Assembly: GCA_013696105.1 (NCBI GenBank)
Contig: JACCZE010000098.1
Span: 1 to 52,508 of the forward strand
DNA from: Planctomycetota bacterium
GTDB lineage: Bacteria; Planctomycetota; UBA11346
Direction: 5' to 3'
DNA: 52,508 nucleotides
Shown here in pieces: positions 4,013 to 52,112 of the stretch; position 1 is the first letter of the stretch; the number at the start of each line of letters is the position of its first letter. The notes below the pieces were generated by a model. That model had not been told where the DNA came from, did no database searches, and saw only the letters and a program-made list of their open reading frames with translations. The translations under genes were made by a program, and so were the position numbers.

Positions 4013-4053
4013 GGCGGAAGTGTGGACCGAAGCGGCCGAGGGCACAACACTGA

Positions 4054-4190
4054 ACGTGCTACGTGCTACGTGCTACGTGCTACGTGCTACGTGCTCCGTC
4101 CTCCGTCGACGGCATCGAGATCAGGCGCCGCTCCGGAGGCGCGACGGGCTGTCCGACGGAGGACGGAGCGCGCTGGACGCAGCAAGTGGC
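4054..4190 (+). repeat. Heptad-hairpin element, copy A
   Basis: The left tract is six exact ACGTGCT heptamers (4054-4095) followed by CCGTCCTCC. The core at 4105-4157 starts GTCGACGGCATCG and ends GGGCTGTCCGAC. The right arm GGAGGACGGAGC (4158-4169) is the exact reverse complement of the left arm GCTCCGTCCTCC (4093-4104), so the whole folds into a long hairpin. Read outwards from the core, both sides step in 7-bp units such as GGAGGAC, GGAGCAC and GTAGCAC. To the right the units decay (GGAGCGC, GCTGGAC, GCAGCAA) before copy B begins. The element lies in the 274-bp spacer between the DUF58 gene and manC, both on the minus strand. Confidence 0.85.
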
Positions 4191-4286
4191 GTGCCGTCCT
4201 CAGTCAACGGCATCGCACAGGCGCCGCCTCCCCAGGCGACGGGCTGTCGACGGAGCACGAAGGACGGAGGACGGAGCACGTGGTGC
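4191..4286 (+). repeat. Heptad-hairpin element, copy B
   Basis: This second copy is in the same orientation as copy A. Its core at 4203-4251 starts GTCAACGGCATCG and ends GGGCTGTCGAC, sharing GGCATCG, CAGGCGCCGC and CGACGGGCTGTC with copy A. On the right there are five consecutive heptads: GGAGCAC, GAAGGAC, GGAGGAC, GGAGCAC and GTGGTGC. The last base abuts the TAG stop codon of the DUF58 gene (4287-4289, minus strand). The left arm has a TGAGGAC unit and then decays. Copies A and B form a tandem pair like C and D at 52 kb. Confidence 0.8.
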
Positions 4287-5192
4287 CTATCGCTTATCCG
4301 CGTGCAGCGCGACGAGCAGCCGATTCAGCGGCAGGTGGGCGGGCTCCGCGGTCGTGCATTCGACCAGGGCGCATGCGCGGCTGCGCGCGGCCTTCTGCAG
4401 TTCGAGCCGATGCTTGGCGACCTCTTCGACGTAGGCCGCACGCAATGCGCGCGGCTCGGTCGCGATGGTGTCGGTCCCTTCGAGGTCCTCGAAACGGCTC
4501 ACGGTTGCGACGCCGAGATCGGTCTCGTCCGGATCGAGCACCCACACCAGGGCGCAGTCGTGGCCGCGCCGGCGGACCCGATCGATCGCGCTGGTGATCG
4601 CCTGCGGGTCGGCGATGAGATCGGAGATCAGGATCACCAATCCCTTGCGCACCGACGGGGCGAGCAGGTGCTCGAGCCCCTTGACCGCATCCGTGCCGCC
4701 CTTGGGCACATGCGCCTCGAGCGCGCGGCAGATGCGTTCGAGCTGCGACTGATGCGCGGGCTTGTATTCGACCGACGCCTGCTCGTCGAACAGGATGAGC
4801 CCAGCTCGGTCCTGCTGGCCGAGGACGAGATACGCCAGGGAAGCAGCCAGGATCGATGCGTAGCGGTACTTGGTCAGCCCGGCGCGTTCGCCCTGGTAGG
4901 ACATGCTCGCCGACCCGTCCACCGCCAGAGTGCATCCGAGGTCGGTTTCCGCCTCGTAGCGTTTGAGCACCAGGCGATCGCTGCGGCCGAGCACCTTCCA
5001 ATCGAGGTGGCGGATATCGTCCCCCGCAACGTACTGCCGATGGTCGGCGAAGTCGACCGAGTGGCCCTTGTGGGGGCTGCGGTGCGCACCCGTCTGCAGA
5101 CCCTCGACCACCAGCCGCGCGGCGACCTCCAGACTGTGCAACCGCGCGAGATCGGCGGGCCTGATCAGCGGCGAGGCGGTGGCGTGCAGCAT
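4287..5192 (-). CDS. DUF58 / von Willebrand A-like domain protein
   Basis: The product has about 301 residues. The family block around GHSVDFADHRQYVAGDDIRH is the DUF58 signature, followed by HLDWKVLGRSD and a metal-site motif DGSAS (DxSxS) of a vWA fold. In related genomes DUF58 proteins accompany a MoxR AAA+ ATPase and other vWA proteins in membrane-associated maturation systems; no MoxR gene is in this window. No membrane segment or signal peptide is evident. I prefer the ATG at 5192 over the upstream GTG at 5201; neither has a good ribosome binding site. The gene is divergent from the polyamine operon, with 116 bp between the two starts. Its exact role is unknown. Confidence 0.85.
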   Translation of the reverse strand: MLHATASPLIRPADLARLHSLEVAARLVVEGLQTGAHRSPHKGHSVDFADHRQYVAGDDIRHLDWKVLGRSDRLVLKRYEAETDLGCTLAVDGSASMSYQGERAGLTKYRYASILAASLAYLVLGQQDRAGLILFDEQASVEYKPAHQSQLERICRALEAHVPKGGTDAVKGLEHLLAPSVRKGLVILISDLIADPQAITSAIDRVRRRGHDCALVWVLDPDETDLGVATVSRFEDLEGTDTIATEPRALRAAYVEEVAKHRLELQKAARSRACALVECTTAEPAHLPLNRLLVALHADKR

Positions 5193-5308: not shown

Positions 5309-6250
5309 ATGTCCCGCTACATCACCGAGCGTCTCAACCCGAACTTCGGCTACTTCTACAAGCTCGGCAAGAGCCTGCATCAGGGCCAGACCGAATGGCA
5401 GAAGATGGAAATCGCGGAATCCGAGGAGTTCGGCAACGTCCTGCTGCTCGACGGCGTCACGCAGGTGACCAGCAAGAACGAGTTCCTCTACCACGAGCCG
5501 ATGGTCCACCCGGCGTTGACCAGCCACCCCAACCCCAAGGACGTGCTGATCATCGGCGCGGGCGACGGCGGGATCCTGCGCGAGGTACTGAAGCACCCGG
5601 TCAAGAAGGCGGTGATGGCCGAACTCGACGGCGGCGTCGTCGACTTCTGCGACAAGCTCATGCCCGAGATCAATGCCGGCGCGTTCAAGGACAAGCGCTA
5701 CCGCCTCGAGGTCGGCGACGGCCGCAAGTTCGTCGAGACCACGAAGGAGAAGTTCGACGCGGTGATCATGGACATGACGGACCCGTTCGGGCCGTCGGTG
5801 ATGCTCTACACCAAGGAGTTCTTCCAGAAGGTGAAGAAGACCTTCAAGGACAAGCGCGCGATCTTCGTGATGCATACCGAGAGCCCGGTCGCACGCCCCA
5901 ACACCTTCATGCAGTGCAACCGCACGCTGTCCGAGGTGTTCAAGTTCCGCCGCACCTTCTACCTGTACATCCACATGTACGCGGTGCTGTGGTCGATCAC
6001 CGTCTGCAGCGACGGCACCGACGTCGCCGACCTGTCGGTCAAGAAGCTCGCGAAGCGCCTGCAGAAGCGCAAGATCAAGGGCCTCCAGGCGTACACCCCC
6101 GAAACCCATCATTCGATGCTCGGCGAGTTCCCCTTCATCGGCAAGCTGCTCAAGGACATGAAGAAGGTGCCGGTCATCACCGACGCCAACCCCAAGGTCC
6201 TCGACGACATCGACATCAACCGCGGCTCCGTCGAGCTGCGCGAGGTCTGA
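5309..6250 (+). CDS. speE: Polyamine aminopropyltransferase (spermidine synthase family), paralogue 1
   Basis: This enzyme transfers an aminopropyl group from decarboxylated S-adenosylmethionine to a diamine. It has 313 residues. Visible motifs are the N-terminal LLLDGVTQ hairpin, the nucleotide-binding IIGAGDGG, a downstream AELDGGVVDFC, and the catalytic-loop MDMTDPFGP, which keeps the canonical Asp and the DPxGP gate. The start at 5309 is set by GAGGAATTCC just upstream and by family alignment; the ORF track's start is 17 codons too early. It heads a plus-strand operon with a decarboxylase and a second aminopropyltransferase. C-terminal KKLAKRLQKRKIKG is unusually basic. Which amine it uses cannot be told from sequence alone. 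Confidence 0.88.
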   Translation: MSRYITERLNPNFGYFYKLGKSLHQGQTEWQKMEIAESEEFGNVLLLDGVTQVTSKNEFLYHEPMVHPALTSHPNPKDVLIIGAGDGGILREVLKHPVKKAVMAELDGGVVDFCDKLMPEINAGAFKDKRYRLEVGDGRKFVETTKEKFDAVIMDMTDPFGPSVMLYTKEFFQKVKKTFKDKRAIFVMHTESPVARPNTFMQCNRTLSEVFKFRRTFYLYIHMYAVLWSITVCSDGTDVADLSVKKLAKRLQKRKIKGLQAYTPETHHSMLGEFPFIGKLLKDMKKVPVITDANPKVLDDIDINRGSVELREV

Positions 6251-6261
6251 TGCTTCCGCCT

Positions 6262-6296
6262 GTCCGACGTAGGACAGCGGACGGAGGACGGAGGAC
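6262..6296 (+). repeat. Heptad tract (half element) before the decarboxylase gene
   Basis: Exactly five 7-bp units are visible: GTCCGAC, GTAGGAC, AGCGGAC, GGAGGAC and GGAGGAC, then GTTTTC. This matches the right half of the larger hairpin elements, with no left arm. CTGTCC and GGACAG within it can pair around GACGTA. The tract starts 11 nt after the speE stop codon. The final GGAGG lies about 11 nt before the ATG at 6306 and may serve as the Shine-Dalgarno sequence of the decarboxylase. Confidence 0.75.
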
Positions 6297-6305
6297 GTTT
6301 TCTCG

Positions 6306-7439
6306 ATGACCCAGCCCCTGCTGCCCGACCCCGCCCGCATCCGCGCGCTCGCCGCGGAGCATGGCACGCCACTGCTGCTGCTGTCGACGCAGGTCATCCG
6401 GCAGCAGTACCGCATCCTGTCGCAGGCCCTGCCGGGCGTGCAGCTGCACTACGCGCTGAAGCCCCTGCCGCGGGCCGAGGTCGTGGCCGCGCTCAAGGAC
6501 GAGGGCGCGTACTTCGACCTCGCGTCCAATGGCGAGGTCGACGTCGTGCGCTCGGTGGGCATCGACGCGACGCGCTGCATCCAATCGCACCCGATCAAGC
6601 GCGACGAGGACATCCGCTACACCCTCGCCTACGGCACGCGCACCTTCGTCTTCGACAATCCCTACGAGTTGCCGAAGTTCCTGCCCTACAAGGATCAGGT
6701 CGAGCTGCTCATGCGCCTGAGCTTCCGCAACAAGGAAGCCCAGTGCGACCTGTCGGCGAAGTTCGGCGTGCAGCCGTCGGACGCGCACGAACTGCTGCGC
6801 AAGGCCATCGGCATGGGCCTGAAGGTGCGGGGCCTGAGCTTCCACGTCGGCAGCCAGATGCTCAACGCCTTCAAGTTCATCGAGGCGATCGGCTTCTGCC
6901 GCCAGCTCTTCAACCTCGCGGCGCTCGACGGCGTGCGCCTGGACACCCTGGATATCGGCGGCGGGTACCCGGTGCCATACATCGAACCGGTGATGCCGAT
7001 CACCTACTACTGCCACCCGATCGCGGCCGAGCTCGAACGCCAGTTCCCCGGAGTACGCCTCATCGCCGAGCCGGGCCGCTTCGTCGCCGCCCCGTCGATG
7101 ACGCTGGTATCATCGGTCATGGGCAAGGCCGAGCGCCAGGGCCTGATGTGGTACTACCTCGACGATGGGCTGTACGGCAGCTACTCGGGCAAGCTGTACG
7201 ACCACTGCGACTACCAGTTCATGCCGCTGTCCAAGCTCGAGGGCAAAGCCGGACCGGACCGTCTCAGCGTGGTCGCCGGCCCCACCTGCGATTCGATCGA
7301 CGTGGTCTACGACAACATCCTGCTGCCCGAGATGGAGTGCAACGACCTGGTGGTCAGCCCCATGATGGGCGCGTACACCTGGGCCTCGGCCACCGACTTC
7401 AACTTCTTCCCCAAGGCCAAGATCGTCGTCATCGATTGA
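6306..7439 (+). CDS. Ornithine/lysine decarboxylase, fold-type III PLP enzyme
   Basis: The 377-residue protein is of the alanine-racemase-fold Orn/Lys/DAP decarboxylase family. Lys52 in HYALKPLP should bind PLP. HVGSQ (about 180-184), GGGYP (218-222) and AEPGR (254-258) are family blocks, and GPTCDSID carries the catalytic Cys328 and the diamine-recognising Asp332, the latter typical of ornithine/lysine rather than diaminopimelate decarboxylases. The product would be putrescine and/or cadaverine. Its position between two aminopropyltransferase genes supports a dedicated polyamine operon. The gene starts shortly after a heptad repeat that seems to supply its ribosome binding site. The Orn versus Lys preference cannot be decided by eye. 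Confidence 0.9.
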   Translation: MTQPLLPDPARIRALAAEHGTPLLLLSTQVIRQQYRILSQALPGVQLHYALKPLPRAEVVAALKDEGAYFDLASNGEVDVVRSVGIDATRCIQSHPIKRDEDIRYTLAYGTRTFVFDNPYELPKFLPYKDQVELLMRLSFRNKEAQCDLSAKFGVQPSDAHELLRKAIGMGLKVRGLSFHVGSQMLNAFKFIEAIGFCRQLFNLAALDGVRLDTLDIGGGYPVPYIEPVMPITYYCHPIAAELERQFPGVRLIAEPGRFVAAPSMTLVSSVMGKAERQGLMWYYLDDGLYGSYSGKLYDHCDYQFMPLSKLEGKAGPDRLSVVAGPTCDSIDVVYDNILLPEMECNDLVVSPMMGAYTWASATDFNFFPKAKIVVID

Positions 7440-7463
7440 TCAGCCGCGACTGCAGGACGACCC

Positions 7464-8315
7464 ATGGCGACTGAGAACCTGAACCTCTGGCTCGAGGATC
7501 TGTATGGCGATCAGGCGGGCATCCGCCTGCGTCTGCGCGAGTGCCTCTACAGCGCGACCTCGCCGTTCCAGCGCATCGCGGTCTACGACAGCGTCGCCTT
7601 CGGCAAGGTGCTGACCCTCGGCGGCGCGATCGCGCTCACCGACTTCGACGAGGCGCTGTATTCCGAGTGCCTGGTGCATCCGGCGCTCAGCGTGGTGCCC
7701 ACGGCCAAGCGCGTGCTGATCCTGGGCGGCGGCGACGGCGGCGTCGCGCGCGAGGTTCTGCGCTATCCCGGCGTCGAGCGGGTCACCGTGGTCGAGATCG
7801 ACCGCCAGGTCGTCGATGTCTGCAAGCAGTACTTCCCGCGCGCCGCGGATGCGCTGGGCGACAAGCGCGTCGAGCTGGTGATCGACGATGCGCACCGGTT
7901 CCTGCGCGACGCCACCACCGCCTACGACGTGGTGATCGTCGACGCCTGCGAGCTGACCAGCACCGCGAGCGACGCCTTCCACGCCGTGGGTTTCGCGGAT
8001 CTGGTCTTCAAGCGCCTCGCCGACGGCGGGGTGCTCGTCGCCCCCCTCGGCTGTCCGACCTTCGATGCGGACCACTGCCGTGGCACGCTGCGCAAGCTGG
8101 GCGAGAAGTTCGCGCATCCGCACGTCTACCTGATGACCATCCCGAGCTTCCCCGGCGGCCAGTGGGCCGTGGCGTGGTGCAGCACCAAGCAGCCGCCCAC
8201 CGCGGTCGCGACCACCGCCATCGGCGGGGATCTGCGCTGCTGGCATCCCGGGCTGCAGGCCGGCATGTTCGCGCTGCCGCGCAACGTGCAGTCGCAGCTC
8301 GGTCTCAGCCGCTGA
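7464..8315 (+). CDS. Polyamine aminopropyltransferase, paralogue 2 (divergent gate loop)
   Basis: This is a second SpeE-family protein of 283 residues. It has the nucleotide site ILGGGDGGVAREV, VVEIDRQVVDVC, the substrate-site LTDFDEALYSECLVHP, and a catalytic-loop Asp in IVDACEL. Where canonical enzymes read D-x-T-D-P-x-G-P, this one has ELTSTAS, so the loop that closes over the amine differs. It probably accepts a different amine from paralogue 1, for example a longer polyamine or cadaverine derivative; that is inference. It follows the decarboxylase by 24 bp and is the last gene of the operon, meeting the LemA remnant tail to tail. Confidence 0.85.
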   Translation: MATENLNLWLEDLYGDQAGIRLRLRECLYSATSPFQRIAVYDSVAFGKVLTLGGAIALTDFDEALYSECLVHPALSVVPTAKRVLILGGGDGGVAREVLRYPGVERVTVVEIDRQVVDVCKQYFPRAADALGDKRVELVIDDAHRFLRDATTAYDVVIVDACELTSTASDAFHAVGFADLVFKRLADGGVLVAPLGCPTFDADHCRGTLRKLGEKFAHPHVYLMTIPSFPGGQWAVAWCSTKQPPTAVATTAIGGDLRCWHPGLQAGMFALPRNVQSQLGLSR

Positions 8316-13947: not shown

Positions 13948-15519
13948 ATGGCAAAGATTCTGGTCGCCGACGGCATGGCGCCCGAGGGCCTCGAGATCCT
14001 GAAACAGGGCGGCCATACCGTCGACAACCGCAAGCTCGGCGTCGACGAGCTGATGCGCATCATCGGCGAGTACGATGGCCTGGTCATCCGCTCCGCCACC
14101 CAGGTCACCGAGAAGGTGATCCGCGCCGGAGCCCCCAATCTCAAGGTCGTCGGCCGCGCGGGAGTGGGCGTCGACAACGTCGACCTGCCCTCGGCGACCG
14201 TGACCGGCGTCATCGTCATGAACGCTCCCATGGGCAACATCGTGTCCGCCGCCGAGCATACCATCGGCATGGTCTTCGCCGTGGCGCGCATGATCCCCCA
14301 GGCGCACGCCAAGCTGGCGAAGGGCGACTGGGACAAGAAGAGCTTCACCGGTATTGAACTCGACGGCAAGACCCTGGGCATCATCGGTCTGGGGAAGATT
14401 GGCAAGCACGTCGCCCTGGTGCTGCAGGCCGCGGGCATGAACGTCATCGCGAGCGATCCGTTCCTCAGCCCCGAAGTGGCGAAGGAATTGCGCATCGAAT
14501 CGGTGACCCTCGACCAGCTGCTGCCGCGCGCGGACATCATCACCGTGCACACGCCGCTGACCGAACAGACCCGCAACATGATCAACGCGGCTCGCTTCAA
14601 ACAGATGAAGAAGTCCGCGCGCATCGTCAACGTCGCCCGCGGCGGGATCATCGACGAGGCTGACCTCGCCGAAGCCCTGAAGTCGGGGACCATCGCCGGC
14701 GCAGCGCTCGACGTGTTCGCAGAGGAGCCGCTGCCCGCATCCAGCCCGCTGTTCGGCCTGCCGAACATGATCCTCACGCCCCACCTGGGAGCGAGCACCG
14801 AGGAGGCGCAAGTCAAGGTATCGGTCGACATCGCCAACCAGTTCAATGCGTATTTCGCCAGTGGGAAGATCATCAACGCGGTCAACGTGCAATTGCGCGT
14901 GGATCCGGCGATCGACGGCTACCTGTACGCGGCCGAGGCGCTGGGCGCCGCGGTGGTGCAGACGCTCGACGAGCCGCTGATGGGTCTCGAGGTGATCGCG
15001 CGCGGCGATCTCGCGCGCTACGACACCAAGCCCCTGGCGACCGCCGCGCTCAAGGGCGCGCTCGCCAAGATCAGCGCCCAGGTGGTGAACTTCGTCACCG
15101 TCAGCCAGATCGCCAAGGACCGCGGCATCACCATCACGAGCTCGTCGAGCGAGCAGGGCAGCGCCGAGGGCGGCGAGCTCACCGTCAAGGCGACCACCGC
15201 GAACGGCATGCACCTGATCGGGGGAGGCCTGGTCCACGGCCAGCTGCGCGTGCTGCGTTACAACGAGTGGCCGATCGATCTGCCGATCGGCGGACACCTG
15301 CTGGTCATGGAATACCCGGATCGGCCGGGCATGGTCGGCAAGTACGGCTCCATCCTGGGCGCCAACAACATCAACATCGCGCGCATGGAAGTCAGCCGTA
15401 TCGACGGCCGCGGCGACGCGTTGGTGATCCTCACGCTCGACGATCCCATCCCCGTGACGGTGTTCGACGAACTCGTGAGCCTGGTGAAGCCGAACAAGGC
15501 CTACAAGGTTTCGCTGTAG
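13948..15519 (+). CDS. serA: D-3-phosphoglycerate dehydrogenase
   Basis: This catalyses the first step of serine synthesis, oxidising 3-phosphoglycerate to 3-phosphohydroxypyruvate with NAD. The 523-residue length is that of type I enzymes. The domains are a substrate domain, a Rossmann fold with IGLGKIGKH (147-154), VNVARGGIIDE, the catalytic His in LTPHLGAST, an allosteric substrate-binding (ASB) domain (about 315-450), and a C-terminal ACT domain with DRPGMVGKYGSILG. A GGAGGCAAAGAGG tract precedes ATG 13948. The ACT domain suggests feedback by serine. A heptad repeat begins immediately after the TAG stop. Confidence 0.95.
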   Translation: MAKILVADGMAPEGLEILKQGGHTVDNRKLGVDELMRIIGEYDGLVIRSATQVTEKVIRAGAPNLKVVGRAGVGVDNVDLPSATVTGVIVMNAPMGNIVSAAEHTIGMVFAVARMIPQAHAKLAKGDWDKKSFTGIELDGKTLGIIGLGKIGKHVALVLQAAGMNVIASDPFLSPEVAKELRIESVTLDQLLPRADIITVHTPLTEQTRNMINAARFKQMKKSARIVNVARGGIIDEADLAEALKSGTIAGAALDVFAEEPLPASSPLFGLPNMILTPHLGASTEEAQVKVSVDIANQFNAYFASGKIINAVNVQLRVDPAIDGYLYAAEALGAAVVQTLDEPLMGLEVIARGDLARYDTKPLATAALKGALAKISAQVVNFVTVSQIAKDRGITITSSSSEQGSAEGGELTVKATTANGMHLIGGGLVHGQLRVLRYNEWPIDLPIGGHLLVMEYPDRPGMVGKYGSILGANNINIARMEVSRIDGRGDALVILTLDDPIPVTVFDELVSLVKPNKAYKVSL

Positions 15520-15554
15520 ACGTCCGACGTCCGAGGTCCGACGTCCGAGGTCGG
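15520..15554 (+). repeat. GTCCGAC/GTCCGAG heptad tract after serA
   Basis: Directly after the TAG stop codon of serA the sequence reads ACGTCCGACGTC and resolves into GTCCGAC, GTCCGAG, GTCCGAC, GTCCGAG and GTCGG. This is a 14-bp unit repeated twice plus a remainder, with the same 7-bp step as the larger elements but no core. ACGTCCGACGTC also follows the stops of the EboF and rhomboid genes. The tract ends about 14 bp before the next ATG. Confidence 0.75.
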
Positions 15555-45261: not shown

Positions 45262-45372
45262 CACGTCCGACGTCGACAGCAGCCCCACGACACGCACTCA
45301 CTGTTTACCCGCCTGACCCGACATCGGAGGCGCGCCGTGGCTCGGATGCGCGGCTGTCCCGACGTCGGACGT
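45262..45372 (+). repeat. Heptad-hairpin element, copy E, filling a convergent gap
   Basis: The whole 111-bp gap between two convergent stop codons is one element. The left arm ACGTCCGACGTCGACAGC (45263-45280) pairs with GCTGTCCCGACGTCGGACGT (45353-45372), with a 2-nt bulge. The core is about 90 bp and differs internally from copies A-D, but keeps GTCGACAGCA at one end and CGGCTGTC at the other. Both genes have ACGTCCGACGTC within 1 nt after their stop. It could act as a bidirectional terminator. Confidence 0.8.
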
Positions 45373-46878
45373 TCACCTCCGCCCCACTCCCGCAGCCAGC
45401 AACGCTCCCGCGCCGAGGCCGACCAGATGCGCCGTCCCACTCACCTGCGGGTGCGTGAGATCGAAGGCGATCTGCAGGATGACCATCACCACCACCACCT
45501 CGACCTGGCGACGAGATCCCACGCCGGCGCGCCAATCGCGCAGCGCGAGGATGCCGAGCGCGCCGACCAGTCCCATGACCGAGCCCGATGCGCCGACCAG
45601 CAGCTCGAGCCGCCCCGGCTCGGCCAGGTAGAGGACGTAGGCCATCCAGGTACCCGCGAGTCCGCATGCGCCATAGAGCGCCGCATACCGGGCCCGACCG
45701 AGCCGCGGTTCGATTCCTCGGCCGAGCAGGTACAGACCGAGCATATTCATCAGCAGGTGGAGGCTGTTCGCGTGCAGGAACAGGCATGAACCGAGGCGCC
45801 ACCACTCTCCGCGATTGACCGCCGACGGTTCGAACACGCCCAGCGTGAACAGCATCTGCGCACGCTCGTGGTCCCACCCCATGGTGATCAGGAACACGAT
45901 CAGGTTGGTGGCGATCAGGCCCAGGGTCACCCACGGGCGACCATGCACCGGAGGCATGGCGGCGACGACACGCTCCATGCGGCCCGCGAGCTCGTGCAAT
46001 GGTCCCTCGGTCGCTGCGACCGACAGATGCGCGAGGCGGTTGACGATGGCTGCGCGGATCGCCGGACCGGCCTCTGCATCGAGCGCGGCGAGTTCCGCTC
46101 GTGCGCCATCGGCGTCGCCGGCGGCCCAGCTCGCGGTGGCGAGCCAGAACGCCGCACGATCCGCGTGCGCGGTCGACGGATGCCGCAGCATCAGCTTCGC
46201 CAGCGCCGCGCGACGCCCACCGAAGGCGAGCACGCTGACCCACACCAGATGGCGGACGCGCGGATGGGCCAGGGCTCCGCTCGCCTCGAGGACGCCATAC
46301 TCGCGGACGAGGTCGTCTGGGCGCCCCATCTCGCCCAAGGCGCGGATGCGGTACATGGACAGCACCGGCTCGGCGATCCGATCGCCAGCGTCCACCGCAT
46401 CGACGAAGGACAGCAGCTCCTCCCACCGCTGGGTCAGGTGCAGCCGCCAGACCTCGGTCGCGCGATTGCCCGCGGTCGGGGCGTTGGGAGCGGCGCGCAG
46501 CAGTCGCTCGGCCCCAGTGAGGTCTCCGACCTCGGCGCGCGCGGTCGCCAGGCCCATGCCGGTGAACAGGCGCATCGCGGCGGTCGGGCGCACCAGCCGC
46601 AGGAGGATGGCGACGAGCCGGACGGTCCTCCAGCGGCGGCGATCGATCGCGCTCTGGAAGGCCGCAGCGAGCACTCCCGGCAGCAGGATCACCACGCCGT
46701 AGAGCGCGAAGGCGACATACCCGGCGACGCCCGGCGCGATCAGGTAGCACGTCGCCGAGGCGATGGCGATCCCGACCGCCATCGCGATCAGCTCGCTGCC
46801 CTGCGAGCGCGATGCCTGCAACGCCGTCAGGATCAGCGAGATCCCCGCGACCCACAGCAGGACCTCGTTCGCGTCCAT
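45373..46878 (-). CDS. Rhomboid-family intramembrane serine protease with N-terminal TPR-like domain
   Basis: The 501-residue protein has three N-terminal transmembrane helices (1-70), then a helical repeat domain (about 85-290) reminiscent of TPR. The rhomboid core (about 305-501) follows: GEWWRLGSCLFLHANSLHLL, MNMLGLYLLGRGIE, the catalytic Ser431 in GASGSVMG, and His484 in GTAHLVGLG. All active-site residues are present. Substrate is unknown; the soluble helical domain may recruit partners. It ends against element E, convergent with eboF. The gene is about 38 bp downstream of asd's 3' end in the reverse orientation. Confidence 0.88.
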   Translation of the reverse strand: MDANEVLLWVAGISLILTALQASRSQGSELIAMAVGIAIASATCYLIAPGVAGYVAFALYGVVILLPGVLAAAFQSAIDRRRWRTVRLVAILLRLVRPTAAMRLFTGMGLATARAEVGDLTGAERLLRAAPNAPTAGNRATEVWRLHLTQRWEELLSFVDAVDAGDRIAEPVLSMYRIRALGEMGRPDDLVREYGVLEASGALAHPRVRHLVWVSVLAFGGRRAALAKLMLRHPSTAHADRAAFWLATASWAAGDADGARAELAALDAEAGPAIRAAIVNRLAHLSVAATEGPLHELAGRMERVVAAMPPVHGRPWVTLGLIATNLIVFLITMGWDHERAQMLFTLGVFEPSAVNRGEWWRLGSCLFLHANSLHLLMNMLGLYLLGRGIEPRLGRARYAALYGACGLAGTWMAYVLYLAEPGRLELLVGASGSVMGLVGALGILALRDWRAGVGSRRQVEVVVVMVILQIAFDLTHPQVSGTAHLVGLGAGALLAAGVGRR

Positions 46879-51891: not shown

Positions 51892-51900
51892 GAAGACACC

Positions 51901-51994
51901 GTCCTCAGTGCTCCGTCCTCCGTCCTCTGTCGACAGCATGACAGCCGCCTACCTCCGGCTGTCGACGGAGAACCGAGGACGGAGCACGGAGCAC
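51901..51994 (+). repeat. Heptad-hairpin element, copy C
   Basis: The left tract is four clean heptads (GTCCTCA, GTGCTCC, GTCCTCC, GTCCTCT at 51901-51928). The 38-bp core at 51929-51966 begins GTCGACAGCATGAC and ends CTCCGGCTGTCGAC. The right tract is GGAGAAC, CGAGGAC, GGAGCAC and GGAGCAC (51967-51994). The two tracts are inverted with respect to each other. It starts about 9 nt after the aspS stop. Core C matches core D at 34 of 38 positions. Confidence 0.88.
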
Positions 51995-52006
51995 AGAGAC
52001 GTGAAG

Positions 52007-52112
52007 AAAAACGTTCTTCGTTCTCAGTCCTCGTCCTCCGTCGACAGCATGACCGCCGCGTGTCTCCGGCTGTCGACGGAGCACCGAGGACGAAGCACGT
52101 AGCACGTTTTTT
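52007..52112 (+). repeat. Heptad-hairpin element, copy D, with A- and T-runs at its ends
   Basis: Left: AAAAAC, then GTTCTTC, GTTCTCA, GTCCTC and GTCCTCC (52013-52039). Core: 52040-52077 (GTCGACAGCATGAC... CTCCGGCTGTCGAC). Right: GGAGCAC, CGAGGAC, GAAGCAC, GTAGCAC and GTTTTTT (52078-52112). The A5 on one side and T6 on the other, around a long stem, resemble a bidirectional intrinsic terminator. The next gene's ribosome binding site (AAAGGA) follows directly. Confidence 0.88.

Follow-up and report, generated by a model that had tools for sequence, protein, structure and literature searches.

Heptamer elements in the window

The window, by which we mean the whole stretch of 52,508 nt analysed here, belongs to a Planctomycetota MAG (G000; 4.33 Mb in 481 contigs, 79% complete; its nearest named relatives by EboF are likewise Planctomycetota MAGs) and carries five elements built of 7-nt units, which lie past the stop codons of six genes (Table 1). 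Pfam confirms the gene names proposed in the initial annotation: DUF58, spermidine synthase (SpeE), PGDH (SerA), phosphodiesterase (EboF-like), rhomboid and a class II tRNA synthetase with a GAD domain (AspS). The annotation had placed the elements directly past stops, and in the window this holds, but the "five sites" that it listed with six stops are properly five elements at six stops; the convergent eboF and rhomboid genes share a single one, whose 111 nt are, as had been claimed, exactly the space between both stops. The distances of 11 nt for SpeE and about 9 nt for AspS are correct, while the 0 nt given for DUF58 has to be amended, the first heptamer starting about 6 nt past the stop (TAG followed by GCACCACGTGCTCC). 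The word ACGTCCGACGTC does directly follow the stops of serA (0 nt; stop ending at 15519), eboF (1 nt; 45261) and, on the minus strand, the rhomboid gene (0 nt; 45373-45375), its three exact occurrences in the window being at 15520-15531 (+), 45263-45274 (+) and 45361-45372 (-).

Table 1. Heptamer elements of the window (positions without prefix) and arrays lying inside genes (positions with contig handle)
Element	Position	Strand	Context and composition
Two tandem heptamer-armed palindromes	4051..4286	.	Between the DUF58 gene stop (4287-4289, minus) and the nucleotidyltransferase gene 5' end
Short element	6262..6298	.	One GTCCGAC unit, then GGACGGA heptamers
Single arm after serA	15520..15552	+	4-5 heptamers GTCCGAC/GTCCGAG immediately past the stop
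Palindrome between eboF and rhomboid gene	45262..45372	.	Arms ACGTCCGACGTCGACAGC / GCTGTCCCGACGTCGGACGT, centre unconserved
Two tandem palindromes	about 51900-51999 and 52010-52107 (51900..52107)	.	aspS stop (51891) to next start (52125)
uvrA in-frame element	L142:2546-2655
mfd in-frame element	L248:7779-7875
hrpA in-frame element	L142:9132-9245
dnaE-like in-frame copy	L150:16525-16562
In-gene copies of G001	L224, L225, L287, L291

As RNA and as DNA alike, the window's palindromes fold well. The tandem pair past aspS reaches RNA fold z-scores of -7.3 and -6.1, and the element shared by the convergent genes reaches -2.4 on the plus and -3.8 on the minus strand; the pair at DUF58, in which an outer left array of 6-7 ACGTGCT units precedes inner arms of the form GTXCTCC, has a z-score of -4.9 as DNA. 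A search for an opposite arm at the serA site found none, and this single arm folds no better than shuffles. The short element, which begins 11 nt past the spermidine synthase stop (6250), ends 7 nt ahead of the next start codon (6306). Its surroundings (5309-8315) hold a pyridoxal-dependent decarboxylase gene between two spermidine synthase genes, all on one strand, with the element lying between the first two genes. Rfam families gave no match above the gathering score in the window, and tRNA-associated integration was rejected, the window having no tRNA.

Anatomy of the heptamer arms

Reading of 67 hairpins yields a common plan of two inverted arms, each usually of four 7-nt units, around an unconserved centre. 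The units come in three types: the main one, GT-X-CTC-Y (type A), and GTCCGAC and GTGCTAC. In the 54 main-type hairpins of G000, exactly four heptamers make up 41 of the left arms and 34 of the right arms; X is C, T or G, with A in 3 of 432 positions, and Y is mostly C. This degeneracy of X, with A nearly absent, holds in both arms in the inverted sense. Type A arms are mixed at X and Y, although their number of units is fixed at four; the GTGCTAC and GTCCGAC arrays are homogeneous and variable in length, and arm types may differ within one element (L149, L261). Weakly conserved AA/TT lies outside the arms. The centres measure 13-105 nt and are mostly unrelated among elements; CGACAGC is often their beginning, and CGACAGC..GCTGTCG recurs as a core. 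Among the tandem repeats of G000, 7 nt is the dominant period, with 96 arrays against at most 18 for any other period.

Placement across the genome

We examined 1.03 Mb of G000, 226 kb of G001 (a genome of the same genus) and 171 kb of G022 (same family), in contigs chosen mostly by the presence of a match, which selects for presence of the element and not for its distance from stops. Genes were called with a purpose-written codon-usage script, and hence their stops are reliable and their starts less so. The 111 clusters of the G000 sample comprise 62 in codirectional, 21 in convergent and 4 in divergent spacers, 5 at contig edges and 19 in called genes, many of the last lying at miscalled gene starts. 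Under a null model of random point insertion into the same spacers (1000 simulations), 9.4 of the 87 intergenic copies are expected within 20 nt of a stop (sd 2.9, simulated maximum 22), and 69 are observed there; divergent spacers are avoided, with 4 copies for 24.4 expected (simulated minimum 12). For stops, this answers the refuting condition set by the initial annotation, a random genome-wide distribution of copies, and the placement first seen in the window extends to the genome at large. The first heptamer of the G000 copies begins at a median of 8 nt past the stop, and at 2-14 nt in 68 of 79 cases. Genes abutting an element end more commonly in TAG (28/86) than others (118/655; P=0.002). 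Convergent gene pairs with an element are a fraction only of such pairs in G000.

A stop bias of this kind might follow simply from avoidance of coding sequence and 5' regions. Of 13 copies in codirectional spacers of G000 longer than 150 nt, 9 are no farther than 20 nt from the stop, and for 19 codirectional copies the bias survives exclusion of the 80 nt ahead of the start codon (68% no farther than 20 nt from the stop vs 25% expected, P<0.0003). Hence, the 3'-end placement goes beyond a mere shunning of coding sequence and 5' regions. The overall bias is also present in G001 (14 of 23 copies vs 2.1 expected), where it is weaker than in G000 and is gone once 60 nt ahead of the start codon are excluded; in G022 the within-spacer test, on few copies, was not significant.

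The spacing peak at 2-14 nt and the stop preference in long spacers would both fit a machinery that itself targets gene 3' ends, for instance via terminated transcripts, R-loops or convergent-transcription supercoils. Against it stand the weaker bias in G001 and its non-significance in G022, the in-frame copies described below, which indicate that other sites are usable, and the failure of a check of Y1 transposase loci and counts to identify any machinery; we consider such targeting improbable. The four Y1_Tnp matches of G000 have no heptamer array in their loci, in a genome that, being 79% complete, could hold an unseen RAYT, and the number of Y1 transposases per genome of the family is unrelated to the element (0 in G001, 13 in G010). 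We accordingly rejected a RAYT as the mobiliser, its genes being present, not flanked by the element and uncorrelated with it. The comparison with MITEs rests on the inverted arms and one dispersed pair of copies; neither a parent transposon nor a target duplication was identified. A plasmid or phage vehicle was likewise set aside: the element is unmatched in plasmids, and its arm matches one Agrobacterium plasmid only and no phage.

Copies inside genes

A minority of copies lie in frame within coding sequence, namely in the genes for UvrA, Mfd, HrpA, a DnaE-like protein and LarC, and reading of proteins reveals further in-frame arrays in mutL and aroC of G001. The in-gene arrays and full elements sit in housekeeping genes, many of them for DNA repair, and add peptides such as SSVLRPASSV and TSDVRRPTSDV. 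The uvrA copy occupies the same position in G000 and G001, in register and in frame, built of GTXCTCC heptamers in one genome and of GTCCGAC heptamers in its relative; the mfd copy behaves like it, at the same position in both species with different heptamers. Both species have a further period-7 array past the stop of mfd, made of GCGGAGG in one (from L248:10219 onwards) and of GCGGATG in the other (from L225:5774 onwards).

Possible roles at the mRNA level

The initial annotation had read the placement as a sign of a 3'-end function such as termination or mRNA protection, or of insertion targeted to 3' ends, and this is supported in part. The 3'-end placement itself is real and exceeds mere avoidance, as set out above, but the canonical form of termination is not supported. 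Of 122 flanks, 6 have TTTT no more than 12 nt from an arm; individual sites, aspS among them (ACGTTTTTTCG), do possess a T-run. For about 16 copies, the distance from their end to a downstream start codon is 10 nt or less; since no promoter fits into that space, these must lie inside transcription units. The in-frame copies in uvrA, mfd and hrpA likewise speak against canonical termination. A canonical intrinsic (Rho-independent) terminator was rejected, the rarity of T-runs and the copies abutting start codons making a standard terminator unlikely. We also dismissed a ribosome-binding role of the right arm, the frequency of SD-like motifs past elements (52% vs 41% generally) being unconvincing.

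The arms pair at about 23.5 of 30 positions, and it is because they fold strongly that mRNA protection is conceivable; the element possibly acts as a hairpin on the mRNA past stops. The X positions match between arms more often than by permutation (0.495 vs 0.367), but shifted pairs of units inside one element match too (0.42 vs 0.33), and the Y positions show no covariation between arms. The covariation of X is thus mainly at the level of the element, selection for pairing is not proven, and we discarded the argument that compensatory base pairing proves an RNA hairpin.

A stronger version of the hairpin idea holds that these are selected RNA elements, one kept per such stop, which define or protect mRNA 3' ends, in the manner of a terminator or an RNase block, or tune the termination of translation. 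The placement near stops, the stable folds and the retention of positions over about 20% nucleotide divergence argue for it, as does the report that ribosomes stall at REPs of E. coli that are no more than 15 nt from a stop (PMC12306157). We nevertheless regard it as rather unlikely: besides the pattern of X and Y, the scarcity of T-runs and the copies that abut start codons, the serA copy lacks a better fold than its shuffles, no more than a fraction of convergent pairs carry an element, and some copies lie inside genes.

Dispersal and change between species

A 120-nt element occurs at L250:3772-3884 and at L141:12910-13029 with 91% identity overall and 96% in the centres, between flanks that are unrelated; hence copies disperse. 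This pair bears on a model in which simple heptanucleotide arrays grow at random by polymerase slippage and acquire inverted arms by quasi-palindrome template switching, with dispersal unneeded. Such a model would account for the dominance of period 7, for the homogeneous arrays of variable length and for the mixed arm types within one element. The presence of a full element, centre included, at two unrelated places speaks against it, as does the heterogeneity at X and Y of type A arms that are fixed at four units, and slippage by itself yields no stop preference; we judge it very unlikely.

G000 has 361 exact type A pairs (GTXCTCC) and G001 has 2, with GTTCTGN in their stead; GTCCGAC is common to both. 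Beyond this genus, GTCCGAY arrays occur in G016 and G022, of a second genus of the family, and are absent from the other 19 genomes of the family; of 392 genomes of the phylum, 3 have perfect GTCCGAC arrays, and two of those belong to this genus. G016 has 165 GTCCGAY arrays and 17 matches to the reversed control pattern, and may hold another type of heptamer array. None of 80 EboF-bearing loci from other taxa has such an array.

Orthologous places mostly carry heptamers in both G000 and G001, but different ones, some of these site pairings having been made by eye under the threshold of the script. Positions are kept across about 20% nucleotide divergence, with one empty site in G001 (L266/L283). 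The heptamers have changed at aspS, DUF58, L149/L230, L244/L228, L247/L234, L265/L235 and past the mfd stop. Several G001 contigs were picked for their GTCCGAC content, which favours a difference in heptamer type; the aspS and DUF58 sites were not so picked. At the aspS stop, G001 has the identical two-hairpin layout built of GTTCTGN heptamers, and at the DUF58 stop it retains an element with heptamers of the GTTCTNN type. The centres at orthologous sites have a suggestive similarity (P about 0.02-0.03), which led us to reject homology of these centres as a finding. Shared sites such as the one in uvrA may stem from replacement in place or from two separate insertions at a single spot. One reading of such sites, which we hold to be doubtful, is that arms are rewritten in place, so that site (past a stop or within uvrA and mfd), 7-nt period and inverted layout persist while the sequence of both arms and the genome-wide consensus change between species. 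If so, there would be a trans-acting system that recognises, copies or corrects dispersed heptamer arms, shared in kind with the heptamer repeats of Xanthomonas and Nostoc.

The genome-wide shift of the species consensus also counts for the idea that a protein binds the heptamers in DNA, in which case the sites would serve at gene ends as roadblocks, insulators or nucleoid sites; the near-absence of A from X on both arms in the inverted sense would fit recognition of DNA by a protein. Set against this are the several unrelated-looking heptamer types within one genome and the fact that no candidate protein was identified, and we give the idea very little credence. A parallel is plasmid pSM19035, whose omega protein binds arrays of heptads; these are plasmid centromere and operator sites. 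The planctomycete arrays resemble them in being contiguous 7-nt repeats in direct and inverted order and differ in being dispersed at chromosomal gene ends, with no such protein identified; the lead to the omega heptads came from PMC9499535.

The reading that we lean towards is that of a REP-like family of non-coding palindromic repeats, dispersed through this planctomycete genus and persisting mostly just past stop codons. Copies would arise via some trans-acting process acting on the palindrome, and insertions into coding sequence and promoters would mostly be lost. The survivors would remain just past stops, where a strong 3'-UTR hairpin may be harmless, or else useful by holding up 3'-5' RNases or delaying the terminating ribosome, effects described for the REPs of E. 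coli. The heptamers may later be altered in place by tandem slippage and by copying from arm to arm. The placement, the long-spacer bias, the four-unit arms, the copy pair, the in-frame copies, the TAG excess, the kept positions and the ratio of 361 to 2 in type A pairs all count for it. Counting against it are the failure to find a mobilising enzyme among the Y1 transposases, the single clear recent copy pair and the single empty site, together with the spacing of 2-14 nt from the stop, which is narrower than simple tolerance predicts.

Relationship to known repeats

In anatomy, the closest parallel is with the GGGAATC repeats of Xanthomonas (Rehm et al. 2015, PMC4692102, which also covers the GGGGA(T/C)T repeats of Nostoc). 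In both, the unit is of 7 nt, two of them degenerate, and occurs most often four times and often in close inverted pairs; both are mainly intergenic, few between divergent genes and nearer to the preceding stop; and in both, related species retain the loci although sequence and length have changed, 83% of the positions in Xanthomonas being shared by two species and the repeats lying nearer to the preceding ORF stop than to the next gene (PMC4692102). The planctomycete copies lie closer to stops, share the CGACAGC..GCTGTCG core and include in-frame members within repair genes. The Xanthomonas heptamers are G-rich and were studied as G-quadruplex formers, whereas GTXCTCC, GTCCGAC, GTGCTAC and their complements have no GGG. 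Quadruplex formation is thus unlikely as the general reason for heptamer anatomy, since heptamers free of G-tracts are here arranged and placed much like those of Xanthomonas.

In habit, the family resembles REPs, which lie less than 20 bp from the 3' ends of convergent or codirectional ORFs, are enriched at TAG and occur within uvrA and dnaE2 (Di Nocera et al. 2013, PMC3733652). Like the REPs and BIMEs of the GTAG and CGTC superfamilies, the elements are palindromic, dispersed, near stops and associated with a TAG excess, with copies in uvrA and dnaE-type genes (PMC3733652), and they share the intergenic position near codirectional and convergent 3' ends and the rarity between divergent genes. 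However, REPs are units of 20-40 bp with one stem of 5-13 bp and a GTAG or CGTC tag, whereas each planctomycete arm consists of some 30 nt of heptamers, and no RAYT is adjacent. The GTAG tag is in none of the 67 hairpins read, which separates them from the GTAG superfamily; and in place of the 8-9 bp stem, 4-5 nt loop and CCA tail of the CGTC class, they have unconserved centres of 13-105 nt with no short stem-loop. CGTC does terminate many left arms (CTCCGTC, followed by GACAGC).

Two further groups share single traits. Rickettsia palindromic elements (RPE, as summarised in PMC3733652) are palindromes in frame within protein-coding genes; their sequence is unrelated, and most planctomycete copies lie outside genes. 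The TAACTGA repeats of Beggiatoaceae (MacGregor 2015, PMC4679880) are also short intergenic heptamer arrays at many loci, but are direct repeats just upstream of start codons, in contrast to inverted arms downstream of stops.

We found no prior description of this heptamer-palindrome family in the open-access literature, elsewhere than which one may exist, and our best reading is that the heptamer-armed palindromes are a new family, REP-like and retained at 3' ends. The family joins two literatures, that of the bacterial heptamer repeats by its anatomy and that of the REP palindromes by its habit of lying at stop codons and in repair genes. Because place is kept while sequence changes, this genus can serve as a natural test case for the gathering of palindromes directly past stops.

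Other repeats and matches

GTNCTCC arrays, with units such as GTACTCC, are found in IMG/VR at L319:4319-4417, at L330:12245-12387 and in 16 further unrelated contigs, as inverted pairs in two cases; these sequences hint that the kind of repeat is wider than this planctomycete family. In the record of an Agrobacterium pusense plasmid, 34 nt (CP135083.1:46223-46256) are 97% identical to a type A arm. Other repeated words in contigs L140-L179 of G000 include GCCGTAGGGGCGACAGCCC, GCCCGGGGGTAGGC and TTTTTCAACAGCCTG, with about 10 copies each in these 580 kb; the first of these contains GTAG and, judged by that motif, may be a true REP.
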